In this document: in pieces, positions 6,316 through 64,000 of the stretch
How the letters are laid out: the number at the start of each line of letters is the position of its first letter
How positions within the stretch are numbered: the stretch's first letter is position 1
Origin: Pararhizobium mangrovi
GTDB taxonomy: Bacteria > Pseudomonadota > Alphaproteobacteria > Rhizobiales > Rhizobiaceae
Direction of reading: 5' to 3'
NCBI RefSeq assembly: GCF_006516965.1
Contig: NZ_VHLH01000024.1
Location: 1-64,000 of the forward strand
DNA: 64,000 nucleotides
The notes under the pieces: model-generated
Seen by the model: only the letters and a program-made list of their open reading frames with translations
The model's database searches: none
Told to the model about the DNA's origin: nothing
Position numbers and translations under genes: made by a program

Positions 6316-7050
6316 ATGGTACCGACCTGGCTGCACATTCTTTCCATCGTGGCGATCGCCACAGGTTTCGTCTGCGCCGCGATCGTCGTCGTCGACGAGT
6401 GGCGCGATCCGCAGCACATGTGGATCATGAACCTCGTGTGGCCGCCGGTGGCGCTCTTCGCCGGACCGCTTGCGCTGGCTGGCTATTTCGTCTGGGGCCG
6501 GCTCGCCACGGACAGCCGCATGAAGGCGGCGATGGAAGCGGACGAGCCGATGCCCAATATCGCGCGCAGTTCTTTCGCGGCGATGGTGGGCAAGGGTTCG
6601 GCGCATTGCGGCGCGGGCTGCGCGCTTGGCGATATCGTCGCGGAATGGTTCGCCTTCTTCGTTCCCGCCGTCGCCCTGTGGCTCGGCTGGAAATCGGTCT
6701 TTCCCGACAAGATCTTCGCCGTCTGGATCCTCGACTTCATCGTGGCGTTCTGCTTCGGCATCGCCTTCCAGTATTTTTCGATCAAGCCGATGCGCGACCT
6801 GACGCCCCGCCAGGGCCTCGTTCAGGCCGTGAAGGCGGATACGCTCTCGCTCGCCTCCTGGCAGGTCGGCATGTACGGCTTCATGGCGATTGCCCACTTC
6901 TGGATCTTCGCACACGTTCTGGGCACCAGGCTCGAAGTCGCGAGCGTGGAATTCTGGTTCATGATGCAGATCGCCATGCTGTGCGGCTTCGCCACCTCCT
7001 ACCCGATCAACTGGTGGCTACTGAAGGCCGGCGTCAAGGAGAAGATGTGA
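6316..7050 (+). CDS. DUF4396 domain membrane protein
   Basis: This 244-residue protein has about six hydrophobic segments. The hallmark of the family is the stretch SSFAAMVGKGSAHCGAGCALGD (shown only in part here), where HCGAGC provides a histidine and two cysteines near a membrane interface, suggesting metal binding or redox chemistry; the function is not established. I start at the ATG at 6316 (MVPTWLHILSIVA), which places the first membrane helix at the N-terminus. An upstream ATG at 6238 would add a polar 26-residue leader. It lies 105 bases after the MITE-like element and converges on the DUF3008 gene. Confidence 0.8.
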   Translation: MVPTWLHILSIVAIATGFVCAAIVVVDEWRDPQHMWIMNLVWPPVALFAGPLALAGYFVWGRLATDSRMKAAMEADEPMPNIARSSFAAMVGKGSAHCGAGCALGDIVAEWFAFFVPAVALWLGWKSVFPDKIFAVWILDFIVAFCFGIAFQYFSIKPMRDLTPRQGLVQAVKADTLSLASWQVGMYGFMAIAHFWIFAHVLGTRLEVASVEFWFMMQIAMLCGFATSYPINWWLLKAGVKEKM

Positions 7051-57808: not shown

Positions 57809-58795
57809 TCACTGTTCGTTGGCGCTCGCGCCGAGGGTGTCGGCAGCCCGCGCGCCGCGTTCGCCCATCGGCTTGTCCTCGCCGATGGTCGAATCCATTC
57901 CCGTCTGGTGCTCCATCTCGGCGTTGATCTCGGCGCCGACGATGAGGATCACCAGCGAGATCCAGGTCCACATCAGGAAGCCGATCGCCGCACCCAGCGA
58001 GCCGTAGGTGGCGTTGTAGTTGGCGAAGCTCTGCAGGTACCAGGAAAAGGCGATCGAGGCGATGATCCACACGACCGTCGCAAGCACCGCTCCCGGCACC
58101 TGCCAGCGCCATTTCGCGCGGCGACGGCTCGGCCCGAAGCGGTAGATGATGGATATGCCGAAGGCGATGAAGATCAGCATCAGCGGCCAGCGGACGATGC
58201 GGATCAGGAGATCGGCGACGGTCGTCAGACGCAGGAAGGCGAGCAGCGCCGGGATCACGCCGACGACGACGATCAGGAGCGCGGCGATGATCATCGCGCC
58301 GAAGGTGAAGACGAAGCTCACGAGGTTGAGCCGGATGAAGCTGCGGTGCTCGCGCTCCTCGTAGGCGATGTTCATCGCGTCGAAGAGCGTCTTGATGCCG
58401 TTGTTCGCGCTCCACAGCGCGGCAAGCAGGCCGAAGACGAAGCCGAAGCTCAAGGCGTTGGAGTTCGCCGTCGCGAAGGCCTTCAACTGGCTGTTGATCA
58501 GGTCGAAGGCGGCCTCCGGCATCAGCCGCGAGAGGAAGGCGATGTGATCGGCGATCGTCGAAGGATCGGCGACCAGCCCGTAGAGCGAGACGAAGGCGGC
58601 AAGCGCCGGGAAGATCGCAAGCAGCAGGTAGAAGGTCGACCCGGCGGCGATCAGCATCACCCGGTCTTCGGATATTTTGGTGAACACGCGCCGTGCGATA
58701 TCCCACCAGCCGAGCCTGGGAATGCGCTGGGGCCAGTAGGCTCTGCGGCCCCTGCCCTTTTCGGTCAGTCTCTGCCGATCCATGTCGGTAACCAT
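57809..58795 (-). CDS. YihY/BrkB family inner-membrane protein
   Basis: The 328-residue protein has six hydrophobic segments and the family sequence EDRVMLIAAGSTFYLLLAIF, and later WKWQVPGA-like WRWQVPGAVLATVVWIIASI and YGSLGAAIGFLMWTWIS. Despite the old names (virulence factor BrkB, RNase BN) the function is unknown. The end is polar and acidic. The ATG at 58795 has AGGCGG in front; an internal ATG at 58783 is an alternative. It diverges from the ku operon. Confidence 0.9.
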   Translation of the reverse strand: MVTDMDRQRLTEKGRGRRAYWPQRIPRLGWWDIARRVFTKISEDRVMLIAAGSTFYLLLAIFPALAAFVSLYGLVADPSTIADHIAFLSRLMPEAAFDLINSQLKAFATANSNALSFGFVFGLLAALWSANNGIKTLFDAMNIAYEEREHRSFIRLNLVSFVFTFGAMIIAALLIVVVGVIPALLAFLRLTTVADLLIRIVRWPLMLIFIAFGISIIYRFGPSRRRAKWRWQVPGAVLATVVWIIASIAFSWYLQSFANYNATYGSLGAAIGFLMWTWISLVILIVGAEINAEMEHQTGMDSTIGEDKPMGERGARAADTLGASANEQ

Positions 58796-58960
58796 AACAA
58801 TCCGCCTGCGGCGCCGAGCCGCCTACATGGGTGATACTACAATAGGCGATCGCACGAATCGTTCCCGGCATTGTGCGCCGCACGCGGATGCGAACGTGGC
58901 GACAAGATGGCCCGGTTGCGCGTTTGTGATGTTGCGGGAAGTCCGATCGTCGCAGGCGCT

Positions 58961-58985
58961 GGAACGTCCGGCCCGACGTTTCGTT
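58961..58985 (+). promoter_or_regulatory. EcfG/RpoE2-type general-stress promoter upstream of the ku-ligD cluster
   Basis: GGAAC at 58961-58965, exactly 16 bases, CGTT at 58982-58985: a perfect match to the alphaproteobacterial general-stress sigma factor consensus. The start codon of the small membrane protein (59022) lies 36 bases after the -10. In Sinorhizobium meliloti ku and ligD genes are reported under RpoE2 control, which supports the assignment. Confidence 0.75.
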
Positions 58986-59021
58986 ACCGTGAGCGAAGAA
59001 GAAAATCCGGGAAACGCAGGA

Positions 59022-59276
59022 ATGGCCGAAAAACAAGTCGATCGCCGTGAGGCTCGTCAGGGCCGCAACGGTCCGCGCATGCTCATTGTTCTGGTCGCGG
59101 CGCTCGTTCTGGCCGCGATCGCATGGGGCATCGCGAACCTCTACTTCGACAGCGTCGAACCGCAGCGCAATTTCACGACGGACCAGGAATCGCACAGCAA
59201 CGCGGAACAGCCGGCCAATCCGGTTCCCAACGGGGAGAACAAGCCTTCGGCTCAACCCCGAAACGACAACCAGTAG
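59022..59276 (+). CDS. Small membrane-anchored protein, first gene of the ku-ligD cluster
   Basis: The 84-residue protein starts MAEKQVDRREARQGRNGPRM, has one membrane helix (about residues 20-43, LIVLVAALVLAAIAWGIANL), and a polar, Asn/Gln/Pro-rich tail (NGENKPSAQPRNDNQ). The likely topology is inside N-terminus, outside C-terminus. It lies 45 bases before ku and directly behind the stress promoter, so it probably shares its transcript. I recognise no family. A GTG at 58989 would lie too close to the transcription start to be used. Confidence 0.7.
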   Translation: MAEKQVDRREARQGRNGPRMLIVLVAALVLAAIAWGIANLYFDSVEPQRNFTTDQESHSNAEQPANPVPNGENKPSAQPRNDNQ

Positions 59277-59321
59277 GCTCACGACCAGGCAGCGGGCCGA
59301 ACGCAGCGAGGGATTTGCCGC

Positions 59322-60314
59322 ATGGCAGCGCGTGCAGCATGGAAGGGACAGCTTCGTCTCTCCCTCGTTTCCATCCCCGTGGAACTCTACCCGGCGACGC
59401 GCCGCAGCGCGCATATCAGCTTTCGCCAGATCCACGAGCCTTCCGGCAAGCCGGTACACTATCAGTCGGTCGTGGACGGCGTGGGACCGATCGACAAGAG
59501 CGACATCGTCAAGGGCTACGAGGTGGAAAAGGGCGAGTACGTCCTTCTCGACCCGGAAGAGATCGACGCGATCAAGCTCGAGACGAAACGTACGCTCGAA
59601 CTGGTGCAGTTCGTCTCCTCCGACGAGATCCCGCCGCTCTACTACGACAAGCCGTATTACCTCGTCCCGACCGACGAACTGGCCGAAGACGCCTACAGGG
59701 TCGTGCGCGACGCTCTGCGCGACAGCCGCAAGACCGGGCTCGGCCAGCTGACCCTGCGCGGGCAGGAATACCTTGCCGCCGTACGCCCGTGCGGAGACGG
59801 CCTGCTGCTCGAGACGCTGCACTACGCCGACGAGATCCGGAACGCCGACCCGATGTTTTCCGACATCACGCATCGGGAGCCCGACCAGGACCTCCTGAGC
59901 GTCGCGACGGAACTCATCGACAAGAAGACCGCGCCCTTCGACGCGAGCGTCTTCAAGGACCATTATTCCGTCGCCCTTCGCGACCTCGTCAAGCGCAAGA
60001 CGGGCGACCGCAAGGCCAAGCGCGCCGAGACCGACGACGACGAAAAGCCGGAGAACCGGGGAGACAACGTCGTCGACCTGATGTCGGCACTGAAGAAGAG
60101 CCTGGAGGGATCCGGGGAAGACGACAACAAGCAGGGCGGCGGCAAGAAGACCGCTTCCGGCAAGGGCACGCGAAGCGGCGGCACGAAGAAGGCCGCCTCG
60201 TCCTCGACCAAGTCGTCCTCCGGCAAGTCTTCCTCGACGAAATCGTCGAAGGCGAAGAGTTCTTCCGGTTCGTCTAAATCCGCCGCCTCCGGATCCCGCA
60301 AGAAGTCGGCCTGA
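59322..60314 (+). CDS. ku: Non-homologous end joining protein Ku
   Basis: The 330-residue homodimeric Ku binds and holds double-strand DNA breaks for LigD. The beta-barrel core starts ARAAWKGQLRLSLVSIPVEL, with SGKPVHYQSVVDGVGPIDKS, DPEEIDAIKLETKRTLELVQ and YYLVPTDELAEDAYRVVRDA. Residues about 265-330 form a Lys/Ser-rich extension (GGKKTASGKGTRSGGTKKAA), longer and more basic than minimal Ku; such tails help DNA threading and LigD contact. The next gene is ligD, 11 bases on. Confidence 0.95.
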   Translation: MAARAAWKGQLRLSLVSIPVELYPATRRSAHISFRQIHEPSGKPVHYQSVVDGVGPIDKSDIVKGYEVEKGEYVLLDPEEIDAIKLETKRTLELVQFVSSDEIPPLYYDKPYYLVPTDELAEDAYRVVRDALRDSRKTGLGQLTLRGQEYLAAVRPCGDGLLLETLHYADEIRNADPMFSDITHREPDQDLLSVATELIDKKTAPFDASVFKDHYSVALRDLVKRKTGDRKAKRAETDDDEKPENRGDNVVDLMSALKKSLEGSGEDDNKQGGGKKTASGKGTRSGGTKKAASSSTKSSSGKSSSTKSSKAKSSSGSSKSAASGSRKKSA

Positions 60315-60325
60315 GGGAAGCCCCG

Positions 60326-62917
60326 ATGGCAGGCAAGGCCGACCCGCTCGCCGAATACAAACGCCGCCGCGACTTCAGCCAGACGCGTGAGCCGAAGGGC
60401 AAGGCCGGCCGGAAACCGCCCGTGAAGGAGCGGCTCGCCTTTCTCGTCCAGAAGCACGACGCGACGAGGCTGCACTACGATTTCCGGCTCGAAAACGAAG
60501 GCGTGCTCCTGAGCTGGGCGGTGACGAAGGGACCGAGCGCGGACCCGGAAGACAAGCGGCTCGCCGTGCGCACCGAGGACCATCCGCTCGAATACGGCAC
60601 CTTCGAGGGCACGATTCCGAAGGGCCAGTACGGCGGCGGTACGGTGATGCTGTGGGACACCGGATGGTGGGAACCGCTGCACGACCCGGCCGAGGGCATC
60701 GCCGAGGGAAAGCTGCACTTCATTCTTCACGGCGCACGCATGACGGGCGGCTGGGCGCTCGTGCGCATGCGTGCGCGCAAGGGGGAAAAGCGCGAGAACT
60801 GGCTCCTCGTGAAGGAGCGAGACGACGACGCCCGCGACGACGGCGATGCGCTGCTTTCCGAAAACGAGAAGAGCGTCGCGAGCGATCGCACGATGAAGGA
60901 GATCGCCGAGGAGAAGGGCGAGACGGCTCAAGGCAAACGCGTGAAGACCGCGAAGCGGACCGCCAGCACCCGTTCGGGGAAGCGGGCGAAGTCTTCCGGT
61001 CCACCGCGTTTCCAAAAGCCGCAACTCGCAACGCTCTACGACACCGCGCCCGAGGGCGCGGACTGGCTCCACGAGGTCAAGTTCGACGGTTACCGCGTAC
61101 TGGCCGCCGTCGGCGGTGGCAAGACACGGTTCTTCACGCGCAACGGGCACGACTGGAGCGACAAGTTCGCCGTCCTGCAGGCACCTTTCGCGGAGATCGG
61201 TTGCGACGCGGCACTCGTCGACGGCGAGGTGACCGCGGCGTCGAAGACGGACAACTCGGACTTTTCCGCCCTGCAGAAGGTGCTGAAATCCGGCGCCGAC
61301 CTGACCTTCCACGCATTCGACCTTCTTTCGCTCGACGGCGACGACTGGCGCGACAGCCCGCAGATCGAGCGCAAGGAACGGCTGCGCTCCCTGCTTTCCG
61401 ACTTGCCGAAGGGGTCTGCCCTGCACTACAGCGACCATGTCCGCGGCCATGGGCCGGAGGTTCATACGCGCGTCTGCAAGGCGGGCGAGGAAGGCATCGT
61501 CTCCAAACGCGCCGATGCACCCTATCGCGGCGAACGCTCGAAGAACTGGCGCAAGGTGAAGTGCACGAAGCGCCAGGAATTCGTGATCGGCGGCTATTCG
61601 CCCTCCGACAAGAAGGCGCGCCCCTTCGCTTCGCTCCTCGTCGGCACCCACGAGGACGGTGCGCTTATCTATCGCGGACGGGTGGGAACGGGCTTCGACC
61701 AGGACCTGCTCGACGCGCTTTCCGCGCGCTTCGAAAAGCTTGCCCGCAAGACGATGCCCTTCGAGAGCGTGCCGAAGGAACGGGCGAAGGACGCACGATG
61801 GCTGACGCCCAGCCTCGTCGCCGAGATCGAGTTTACGGAATTCACCGACGACGGCCATGTTCGCCACGGCGCGTTCATCGGCCTGCGCGAGGACAAGGAG
61901 GCAAGCGACGTGACGCTCGAATCCAGGCCTTCACCGTCGCGCAAGAAGGCCGCATCGTCGCGCAAGAAAACCGGTGAAGCGAAGAAGGAAAAGACGCCGT
62001 CCACGGCCGAAAAGCTCGAACGCGCCGAGGGCGAGAGTGGCGACCGCATTCTCGGCGTGCGCATCTCGCACCCCGACCGGACGCTCTTCGAGGAACAGGG
62101 CGTCGCAAAGATCGATCTGGCACGCTACTACGCCGTAGTCGCCGAACGGATGCTCGCCCATGCCGCACGGCGGCCGCTTTCGCTCGTGCGCTGCCCGCAG
62201 GGGCCGCAAAAGGCCTGCTTCTTCCAGAAGCACGCGAGCGAAGGGTTTCCCGAGGCGATCCGCACGGTGCCGATCGCCGAGAAATCCGGCGAGAAGCAGG
62301 ACTACCTCTACGTCGAAGACGGCAGCGGCCTCGTCTCCTGCGTACAGATGGGCACGCTCGAATTCCACGTATGGGGGTCTTCGATCGACAATCTCGAAAA
62401 GCCCGAACGCATGATCTTCGATCTCGATCCCGACGAGGGGCTCGGCTTCGCGAAGGTACGCGAAGCGGCATGGGACATGCGCGCGCGCCTATCCGACCTC
62501 GGCCTTCAATCCGTGGTGATGGCGACCGGCGGCAAGGGCCTTCACGTGATCGTACCGATCGAACGACGCGCCGGCTGGGACCGGATCAAGGCTTTCGCGC
62601 GCGGCTTTGCGACCGTCATGGCGAGCGAAGACCCCGAGCGCTACACGGCGACGATGTCGAAGGAAAAGCGCAAGGGTCGCATCTTCGTCGACTGGCTGCG
62701 CAATGAACGCGGCGCGACGGCGATCACGCCCTATTCCACCCGATCCCGGCCGGGCGCGCCGGTGGCGACGCCCCTCGCCTGGGAGGAACTGGACGATCTC
62801 GAAGCCGGCAACACCTTCACGGTACGCACCGTCATCGACCGGCTGGACGATGAACCATGGCCGCAGCCGCCGCGCCAGTCGGTCACCAAGGCCATGGAAA
62901 AGGCGGTTACCCGCTGA
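60326..62917 (+). CDS. ligD: Multifunctional ATP-dependent DNA ligase D
   Basis: At 863 residues this is the full three-activity LigD of bacterial NHEJ. Order: phosphoesterase domain (about 35-165; QKHDATRLHYDFRLENEGVL, GTIPKGQYGGGTVMLWDTG), ligase (about 230-545; nucleotidyl lysine K252 in HEVKFDGYRVLA), a basic linker (SRKKAASSRKKTGEAKKEK), and polymerase/primase (about 573-863; ISHPDRTLF, metal-binding DLDPDEGLGFA). This PE-Lig-Pol order is like Pseudomonas and other proteobacteria rather than the mycobacterial Pol-PE-Lig order. Confidence 0.96.
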   Translation: MAGKADPLAEYKRRRDFSQTREPKGKAGRKPPVKERLAFLVQKHDATRLHYDFRLENEGVLLSWAVTKGPSADPEDKRLAVRTEDHPLEYGTFEGTIPKGQYGGGTVMLWDTGWWEPLHDPAEGIAEGKLHFILHGARMTGGWALVRMRARKGEKRENWLLVKERDDDARDDGDALLSENEKSVASDRTMKEIAEEKGETAQGKRVKTAKRTASTRSGKRAKSSGPPRFQKPQLATLYDTAPEGADWLHEVKFDGYRVLAAVGGGKTRFFTRNGHDWSDKFAVLQAPFAEIGCDAALVDGEVTAASKTDNSDFSALQKVLKSGADLTFHAFDLLSLDGDDWRDSPQIERKERLRSLLSDLPKGSALHYSDHVRGHGPEVHTRVCKAGEEGIVSKRADAPYRGERSKNWRKVKCTKRQEFVIGGYSPSDKKARPFASLLVGTHEDGALIYRGRVGTGFDQDLLDALSARFEKLARKTMPFESVPKERAKDARWLTPSLVAEIEFTEFTDDGHVRHGAFIGLREDKEASDVTLESRPSPSRKKAASSRKKTGEAKKEKTPSTAEKLERAEGESGDRILGVRISHPDRTLFEEQGVAKIDLARYYAVVAERMLAHAARRPLSLVRCPQGPQKACFFQKHASEGFPEAIRTVPIAEKSGEKQDYLYVEDGSGLVSCVQMGTLEFHVWGSSIDNLEKPERMIFDLDPDEGLGFAKVREAAWDMRARLSDLGLQSVVMATGGKGLHVIVPIERRAGWDRIKAFARGFATVMASEDPERYTATMSKEKRKGRIFVDWLRNERGATAITPYSTRSRPGAPVATPLAWEELDDLEAGNTFTVRTVIDRLDDEPWPQPPRQSVTKAMEKAVTR

Positions 62918-62955
62918 GTGCTGCGCTCGGGACCGCGCGATCAAGTGCTCTGCAC

Positions 62956-63031
62956 CCTGATCGGATCAGGTCCAGCGCTCCGGCCCGTTATCTCGGGCAT
63001 CGTCCGCGACGCCGGACCGGATCGGTCCGGC
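62956..63031. repeat. Two perfect palindromes between the convergent ligD and ribbon-helix-helix genes
   Basis: CCTGATC-G-GATCAGG at 62956-62970 and GCCGGACC-GGATC-GGTCCGGC at 63011-63031. Neither has a T tract. They could be hairpin 3' ends for both genes or protein-binding palindromes. Confidence 0.6.
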
Positions 63032-63042
63032 CGGACAATGCG

Positions 63043-63264
63043 CTACCCGTCGTTTGCCGAGTTCAGCGCTTCGGGCCGTGTACCGGCATCGTCGTGCGGG
63101 CCGTCGAAGCCGTTCTCGCGCAGCCAGCGCCGCAAGATCTCGCGAACGGCATGGGCATCGTCGCTCAGATGGCCGTTTTGCGACCGGAAGGCTTCGAGAC
63201 GCGCGACGAGGTCGTCGTCGAGTTTCAGCGTGATGGTCTCGGCTTCGCTTCCGGATGCGCTCAT
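63043..63264 (-). CDS. Ribbon-helix-helix (CopG/Arc-type) protein
   Basis: The 73-residue protein starts MSASGSEAETITLKLDDDLV and has ARLEAFRSQNGHLSDDAHAV followed by REILRRWLREN: one beta strand, two helices. Such proteins are DNA-binding antitoxins or small regulators. No toxin gene is next to it in the window. A perfect 5-bp inverted repeat GGCGC-N8-GCGCC (63284-63301) upstream could be its own operator. The ATG at 63303 is possible but gives a longer N-terminus. Confidence 0.72.
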   Translation of the reverse strand: MSASGSEAETITLKLDDDLVARLEAFRSQNGHLSDDAHAVREILRRWLRENGFDGPHDDAGTRPEALNSANDG

Positions 63265-63412
63265 CGATCTCGTCTCCCTGCGCGGCGCTACATAATGCGC
63301 CATTTCCTGTCCTCAACGACTATGGAGCGCAAACGCGATGCGGCGCGAGGCGGTTCCGCCGGATGCCGGTACCGGTGCCGGTCGGGTTGGCCTTTCGTAT
63401 CGGACCGGGAGA

Positions 63413-64000
63413 TCAGCGGAATGCGCGGCTGACGAAGCGCGTGCCGCGCAGGCCGAAACGCCAGGTGCGGTCGACGTCGCGAGTGATGCCGACACGCGGA
63501 CCGGAGACGACGGACGGTGCGCTCAGGCCTTCCGCCAGCAGGAAGGGCGGCTGGTCGAGCGGCCGGCGGTCGTGTCCGCCATCGATGGCGAGCGCCTGGG
63601 TCAGCCGGCCCGGCCCGCTGCACAGCTTGCGTTCGTCCTCGACACCCCGGCGCGCATACATCGCCTCGATGCCCACGAGCGGCATGAGCGCACGCACCAG
63701 GACGGCACTTCCCGGTTCGGTCACCACGTTGAAGCACCAGTGCAGGCCGTAGGAACGGTAGACATAGGCATGCCCGGCAGGACCGAACATTGCCGAGTTG
63801 CGCGGCGTCACGCCGCCATAGCTGTGCGAGGCCGCGTCGTCGGGCGCATAGGCTTCCGTTTCGACGATGATGCCGCCCGCACCGTCGACCTCGAGCCACG
63901 CGCCGACGAGCGCGCGCGCGACGGTGACGGCGTCCCGCTCGTAGAACTCGGCGGTGAGACGGCGGCCCGGACCAGGCGGACCCTCCTCCGGTCGAAGTTG
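63413..64000 (-). CDS. 3-methyladenine DNA glycosylase (Aag/MPG type), 5' end outside the window
   Basis: The visible 195 codons, reading from the window edge, carry the Aag core: TAEFYERDAVTVARALVGAW, the catalytic-glutamate motif ETEAYAPDDAASHSYGGVTP and RNSAMFGPAGHAYVYRSYGL, ending at FVSRAFR. The enzyme excises alkylated and deaminated purines in base excision repair. Only the N-terminal start is missing. Its position beside the ku-ligD block is suggestive of a small DNA-repair neighbourhood. Confidence 0.9.
   Translation of the reverse strand, partial: QLRPEEGPPGPGRRLTAEFYERDAVTVARALVGAWLEVDGAGGIIVETEAYAPDDAASHSYGGVTPRNSAMFGPAGHAYVYRSYGLHWCFNVVTEPGSAVLVRALMPLVGIEAMYARRGVEDERKLCSGPGRLTQALAIDGGHDRRPLDQPPFLLAEGLSAPSVVSGPRVGITRDVDRTWRFGLRGTRFVSRAFR

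Follow-up and report, generated by a model that had tools for sequence, protein, structure and literature searches.

A stretch of 64,000 nucleotides (nt) from contig NZ_VHLH01000024.1 of Pararhizobium mangrovi (RefSeq assembly GCF_006516965.1), referred to here as the window, carries ku and ligD, the genes for nonhomologous end joining (NHEJ), behind a promoter box of the EcfG/RpoE2 type associated with the general stress response (GSR). Between the box and ku lies a gene for a small membrane protein, and the question raised by this locus is what such a gene is doing in front of DNA repair genes. The answer that we consider probable, though far from assured, is that the GSR makes this protein as one of its membrane outputs and that the gene has become lodged downstream of an EcfG promoter of the ku type, ahead of ku itself. 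What is new here is the small protein family; EcfG control of ku-ligD has been published previously.

Arrangement of the small gene, ku, and ligD

The box, GGAAC-N16-CGTT, was located on the forward strand at positions 58961 to 58985 (GGAAC at 58961 to 58965 and CGTT at 58982 to 58985); it has the GGAAC-N16/17-CGTT form at promoter distance from a gene that characterizes EcfG/RpoE2 promoters and is identical to the motif of sigma-EcfG1 in Rhizobium etli (PMC3892343). The ATG of the small gene (59022 to 59276, forward strand; 84 codons) follows 36 nt past the box. This start was set by alignment to relatives and by the position of the box, the list of open reading frames (ORFs) having given an upstream start. 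After a gap of 45 nt comes ku (59322 to 60314, forward strand), identified by TIGR02772 (Ku_bact, 298 bits) and PF02735, and after a further 11 nt ligD (60326 to 62917, forward strand), identified by PRK05972 (1014 bits), PF13298, PF01068, PF04679, and PF21686. The window therefore encodes the complement of a two-gene bacterial NHEJ system, a Ku with the beta-barrel core and a LigD in which curated domain models recognize 3'-phosphoesterase, ligase, and polymerase domains.

The first-pass annotation had described the box, an 84-residue membrane protein, and ku and ligD in tight succession, and all of these were found in place, the membrane character of the small protein being predicted from its sequence. 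It had also treated GSR control of NHEJ as known in rhizobia and had not recognized the membrane protein as a described part of it. NHEJ in Sinorhizobium meliloti is reportedly RpoE2 dependent. For Sphingopyxis granuli, GSR control of ku-ligD (SGRAN_4136/4135) is in print (PMC7083833), and in Mesorhizobium loti ku and ligD genes are heat induced (PMC3989490). No description of such a membrane protein as part of NHEJ was found in the literature searched.

The small protein belongs to a conserved family

By sequence comparison, the small ORF is a member of a widespread and conserved family and not a stray ORF. The family, defined in this analysis as the A(R/K)QG small membrane proteins, has the motif A(R/K)QG-x2-G directly preceding a single helix, often with E-x-YG after it. 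Across 24 aligned members, A11, Q13, L21, and W35 are invariant, while G14, G17, L24, L30, A31, and G42 are near-invariant, the window protein having F at residue 42. In the window protein, A(R/K)QG-x2-G is followed by a single helix, which shows the L-x2-L and LA/W pattern.

Using the window protein as a single query, relatives were found in 100 of 151 Rhizobiaceae genomes (E ≤ 0.01), and a profile made from the 24 members matched 111 of the 151, with 126 places listed. Applied to the order, with the best 13 candidates per genome scored, the same profile matched 95 of 397 genomes, 72 of which lie outside the Rhizobiaceae and mostly gave weaker scores; in the class it matched 5 of 289 genomes (E ≤ 1e-4). 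A broader profile, three rows of which came from the same 289-genome draw, matched 34 of the 289 (E ≤ 1e-3, best 24 candidates per genome scored). When 28 class-level loci were inspected, a quick script placed the motif at the match in 12 loci from outside the order, and L276 and L277 have it on direct reading; the script output for the remaining 14 was blank or in the wrong frame, so that the motif counts cover 14 loci. A phyR- or ecfG-like match was present in the 1.5-kb flanks of 5 of the 28. Dismissal of the order- and class-level matches L156, L163, L170, L172, and L174 as spurious was considered and dropped, since (R/K)QG stands before a hydrophobic stretch in all 24 matches read.

For the comparison of loci, 120 regions were fetched, representing all listed places but four (two of G021 and one each of G115 and G026). 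In each of two regions with two places the better place was used, and L264 gave no match on rescanning, leaving 119 loci, to which the locus counts below refer. The (R/K)QG motif is beside a helix-like stretch in 108 of them and the full A(R/K)QG-x2-G is present in 89; a 19-residue segment with a mean hydropathy above 1.6 was found in 118, and the N-terminal side is the more positive in all 119. Hydropathy and charge together point to a single-pass protein with its N terminus inside.

Neither Pfam nor NCBIfam gave a match to the window protein at an E value of ≤0.01, and the family is apparently unnamed. Near-misses to FliL, TrgA, TrbK, and SARAF were rejected as far below the cutoffs, and each weak Pfam or NCBIfam match touches just one of the 24 family members. 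No relative was found in the PDB (E ≤ 0.01) and no match in the plasmid collection; a single-sequence scan of the contig collection likewise returned no relatives, which marks a limit of sensitivity, since the profile matched 111 of 151 genomes.

The family is tied to the general stress response

On the evidence of the sequences compared, the family is tied to the GSR by its promoters, its position, and its presence, because many members have boxes of their own, many lie close to ecfG or phyR, and the gene is absent where the PhyR/EcfG domain is absent. A box of the form GGAAC-N16/17-C[G/A]TT within 250 nt upstream of the small gene was identified in 66 loci, with the strict CGTT in 41; the distances to the box may be off, as starts were assigned to the ATG nearest upstream of the profile match. 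Control spacings of 8 to 15 and 18 to 25 nt gave zero or one locus each, the reverse-strand control gave 4 loci, and 300 permuted motifs gave a mean of 0.26 and a maximum of 6. Within the first 60 loci, 38 had a box, compared with a mean of 2.7 and a maximum of 8 in random 250-nt segments of the same regions. Counting boxes ahead of an upstream codirectional DUF883 or YqjE-like gene adds 12 loci, for a total of 78.

An ecfG or phyR gene was found within approximately 4 kb in 49 loci, against about 0.26 expected under a rough estimate of uniform placement, and among 39 named loci, partly from the same genomes, one or the other was within 6 kb in 18. Recurring neighbors, given by the Pfam names of their representatives, include an extracytoplasmic function sigma factor, PhyR, HWE kinase, a receiver-domain protein, DUF883, a holin-like protein (YqjE-like; below the Pfam cutoff), diacylglycerol kinase, PRC-barrel, an AI-2E transporter, and ferritin/Dps. 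These labels were assigned by BLAST against clusters with Pfam-named representatives (the Crp type by eye), mostly within 4 kb; the linkage counts are thus lower bounds, and some reverse-strand AI-2E labels may be shadow frames. A codirectional DUF883 or YqjE-like gene precedes the small gene within 1300 nt in 42 loci. A common order, seen in Nitratireductor, Pseudaminobacter, Aliihoeflea, and others, is phyR, ecfG, receiver, crp, box, DUF883, YqjE-like, small gene, Dps or diacylglycerol kinase, PRC-barrel, and in a Caulobacter metagenome-assembled genome (L211) the small gene adjoins phyR-ecfG.

The small gene was present in 111 of the 136 Rhizobiaceae genomes with a PhyR-sigma2 domain and in none of the 15 without one (Fisher 2e-10). 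With this distribution, and often found in the master locus, the small protein is a candidate important output of the response beyond the reach of domain libraries. Many family members lie inside the phyR-nepR-ecfG locus of Alphaproteobacteria, together with HWE kinase, receiver-domain, Crp-type, DUF883, Dps, and PRC-barrel genes. No publication naming the small gene in that locus was found in a literature search to which supplements were not open, and it may figure in regulon tables as a hypothetical protein; most RpoE2-dependent genes are without a predicted function (PMC6180224).

The genome of the window itself encodes EcfG and PhyR, with ecfG at G000:C16:28589-29116 on the reverse strand, adjoined by PhyR and an HWE kinase match. 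In the 20 kb around ecfG-phyR (L151), a box lies before a DUF883 and a YqjE-like gene and the small gene is absent, its one copy in this genome being on a different contig. Two divergent EcfG-type boxes, 70 nt apart, were also noted at 6976 to 7095 of L151, approximately 2.5 kb from the box before DUF883.

Proximity to ecfG and phyR would also be expected if the protein served the GSR as a membrane sensor or feedback regulator, acting on HWE kinases or on PhyR/NepR signaling. Besides the 49 loci by ecfG/phyR, an HWE kinase gene is present in 34 loci and is the immediate divergent neighbor in 10 of the first 60, and the conserved residues fall in a short N-terminal segment and the helix, as expected of a protein-protein contact. 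However, 70 of the 119 loci are not near ecfG/phyR, the window copy lies on another contig than its ecfG-phyR locus, and an interaction with the kinases or with PhyR/NepR is a conjecture from gene position and conservation. We regard a regulator as unlikely, though it is the main rival to a membrane output.

Other genes also follow the small gene. In L093, L102, and L128, the small gene, with an EcfG-type box, is directly ahead of a gene for a 434-amino-acid protein resembling nicotinate phosphoribosyltransferase (by eye), and in 10 loci, for example L112, L120, L122, L123, and L149, a Dps-like ferritin gene comes after it in the same direction, possibly forming another shared EcfG transcript.

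Probable EcfG-type control of ku-ligD

By itself, the promoter motif is only modestly above chance in both the window and the genome. With a spacer of 16 or 17 it occurs 4 times in the window against 1.05 expected, a number reached by 1 of 100 shuffles, and genome-wide there are 62 matches compared with 42 for a reversed-pattern control. The motif is meaningful here because of its place ahead of the ku operon. Among 29 ku loci of relatives, 15 have GGAAC-N16/17-C[G/A]TT in the 600 nt before ku, and spacers of other lengths between 8 and 25 gave zero to two loci each; these 29 loci are the best scoring among the matches listed and lean towards the ku type of the window. Comparison with these relatives lends good support to EcfG-type control of the small gene-ku-ligD operon, as the first-pass annotation had proposed. 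Such control is what the window would share with the published Sphingopyxis operon and with the NHEJ genes of S. meliloti. The window differs in having a small membrane protein gene between box and ku, whereas 14 of the 15 boxes in relatives, at -50 to -150 from ku, are too close to it to accommodate one.

Were the neighbors not one transcript, the box would serve the small gene alone or be a chance match, and ku-ligD would start separately. The frequency of the motif by chance in the genome (62 forward, 42 control) would allow this, but the gaps are of only 45 and 11 nt, boxes stand ahead of ku in 15 of the 29 relatives, and no other promoter-like or forward-strand terminator-like site separates the small gene from ku-ligD: no sigma70-like promoter was found in 58790 to 63310 and no forward-strand terminator-like site from the small gene to the end of ligD. 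Separate transcription is considered improbable, and we infer that the small gene, ku, and ligD are cotranscribed.

Linkage of the small gene to ku

A ku gene was found within approximately 4 kb in 4 of the 119 loci, namely, the window, L092 (G007), L094 (G030), and L129 (G089), the last with the small gene upstream of ku and an opposite-strand ORF between them. Two of the 39 named loci are near ku, L185, on the same contig as L094, and L192 (Chelativorans alearense), in which DUF883, YqjE-like, and small genes are divergent from ku. The first-pass annotation had suggested looking for the same gene order in related genomes; copies linked to ku do exist, in few loci, and what it had not foreseen is that the protein represents a widespread GSR-tied family found mostly away from ku. 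Under a rough estimate of uniform placement 0.44 loci would be expected near ku, and the excess may reflect only the clustering of GSR targets. Ku is 62% identical between the window and L129 and 64% identical between L092 and L094; with identity of only 34 to 38% between the two pairs, at least two origins of the linkage are probable.

A protein dedicated to NHEJ, for example, one that tethers Ku/LigD or broken ends to the membrane, would suit the place of the gene at the head of ku-ligD in three loci (the window and those of G007 and G030) and upstream of ku in L129, the probable separate origins of that linkage (the window Ku is 34 to 36% identical to those of G007 and G030), and a strong co-occurrence with ku even among GSR-positive genomes (91 with both, 20 with the small gene only, 3 with ku only, and 22 with neither). 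Against it, consistent linkage to ku was not found (4 of 119 loci), and 20 of the 111 genomes that carry the small gene lack a Ku match. G006, the only 99%-complete genome with Ku and no small gene, also lacks a PhyR/EcfG-domain match, and copies from the GSR locus are among the best BLAST matches of the ku-linked ones. This explanation was rejected as the main one on the linkage counts, and we judge it very improbable. The small protein is probably not an NHEJ factor. The three GSR-positive genomes with ku only are 76 to 90% complete, and genome reduction may explain the co-occurrence, the counts having been taken without control for genome size.

The base after GGAAC bears on how the gene came to its place. 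It is G in 9 of the 15 ku boxes, compared with 5 of 64 boxes of ku-unlinked small genes (Fisher 3e-5), and both ku-linked small genes with a box (window and L094) have G at this position. This suggests that the small gene was placed between ku's own EcfG promoter and ku, and family membership accounts for the odd gene before ku-ligD.

Several relatives have two tandem ku genes, and others have two on opposite strands 3 to 4 kb apart (e.g., at G028:C1693, G072:C61, G102:C6, and G017:C8).

Proposed role of the small protein

The PhyR-NepR-EcfG switch is established. Under general stress, PhyR would free EcfG from NepR, and EcfG would transcribe from 58961 to 58985 a single message spanning the small gene, ku, and ligD. 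The small protein would be a generic inner-membrane output of the GSR that crosses the membrane once as a helix, its short positive N terminus with A(R/K)QG lying in the cytoplasm and its tail outside. It would most likely act with, or in parallel to, DUF883 (YqjD-like) and YqjE-like proteins, its target being the membrane, or machinery docked to the membrane, that is adjusted in nongrowing cells. Because of the DUF883/YqjE-like neighbor operons and the promoter evidence, a role at the inner membrane of such cells is proposed. On this view, the gene stands ahead of ku because it came to lie between the EcfG promoter of ku and ku, and its product need not act in end joining.

In the yqjDEK genes of Escherichia coli, a DUF883 protein and a YqjE-like protein are followed by a small third gene. 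Similarly, PA3040-PA3042 of Pseudomonas aeruginosa encode a DUF883 protein, a YqjE-like protein, and a small uncharacterized third protein and are growth phase dependent and linked to envelope stress (PMC11302039). The likeness of the family to the third genes of these operons (YqjK and PA3042) is one of gene order alone. The family differs from PA3042 in its distribution, as it occurs in 111 of 151 Rhizobiaceae genomes and stands under EcfG-type boxes, while PA3042 is reported in the same study from 2 of 113 Pseudomonas species.

Several points weigh against a GSR membrane output behind a ku-type promoter. No recognized box, own or operonic, was found in 41 of the 119 loci, and the motif is weaker at some, as the counts of 108 and 89 given above indicate. 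EcfG dependence is a prediction from sequence, and the membrane role rests on neighbors and on analogy to the YqjD-YqjE operons. The argument from the base after GGAAC is post hoc and draws on two ku-linked boxes, and the other two ku-linked loci, L092 and L129, have no such box. Across all 151 genomes, the small gene also co-occurs with ku, with 91 having both, 20 the small gene only, 4 ku only, and 36 neither.

A broader proposal, which is put forward tentatively and which we hold to be somewhat doubtful, is that an overlooked membrane arm of the alphaproteobacterial GSR may exist, in which the A(R/K)QG protein accompanies PhyR-EcfG across the Hyphomicrobiales and has diverged in other orders, would act with DUF883 and YqjE-like proteins on the inner membrane of nongrowing cells, and has been captured repeatedly into ku-ligD operons, placing envelope and genome protection on one message. 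The small gene is a cheap knockout target for assays of stationary-phase and desiccation survival.

Neighboring genes

Divergent from the box is a gene for a YihY/BrkB-family membrane protein (57809 to 58795, reverse strand), and L103 likewise has a YihY homologue close to the small gene. After ligD, a reverse-strand gene at 63043 to 63303 encodes an 86-amino-acid protein whose N terminus matches NikR weakly, below the cutoff. Next, at 63413 to 64000 and again on the reverse strand, is a frame for a methylpurine-DNA glycosylase, cut off by the end of the window; it places another DNA repair gene next to the NHEJ operon.

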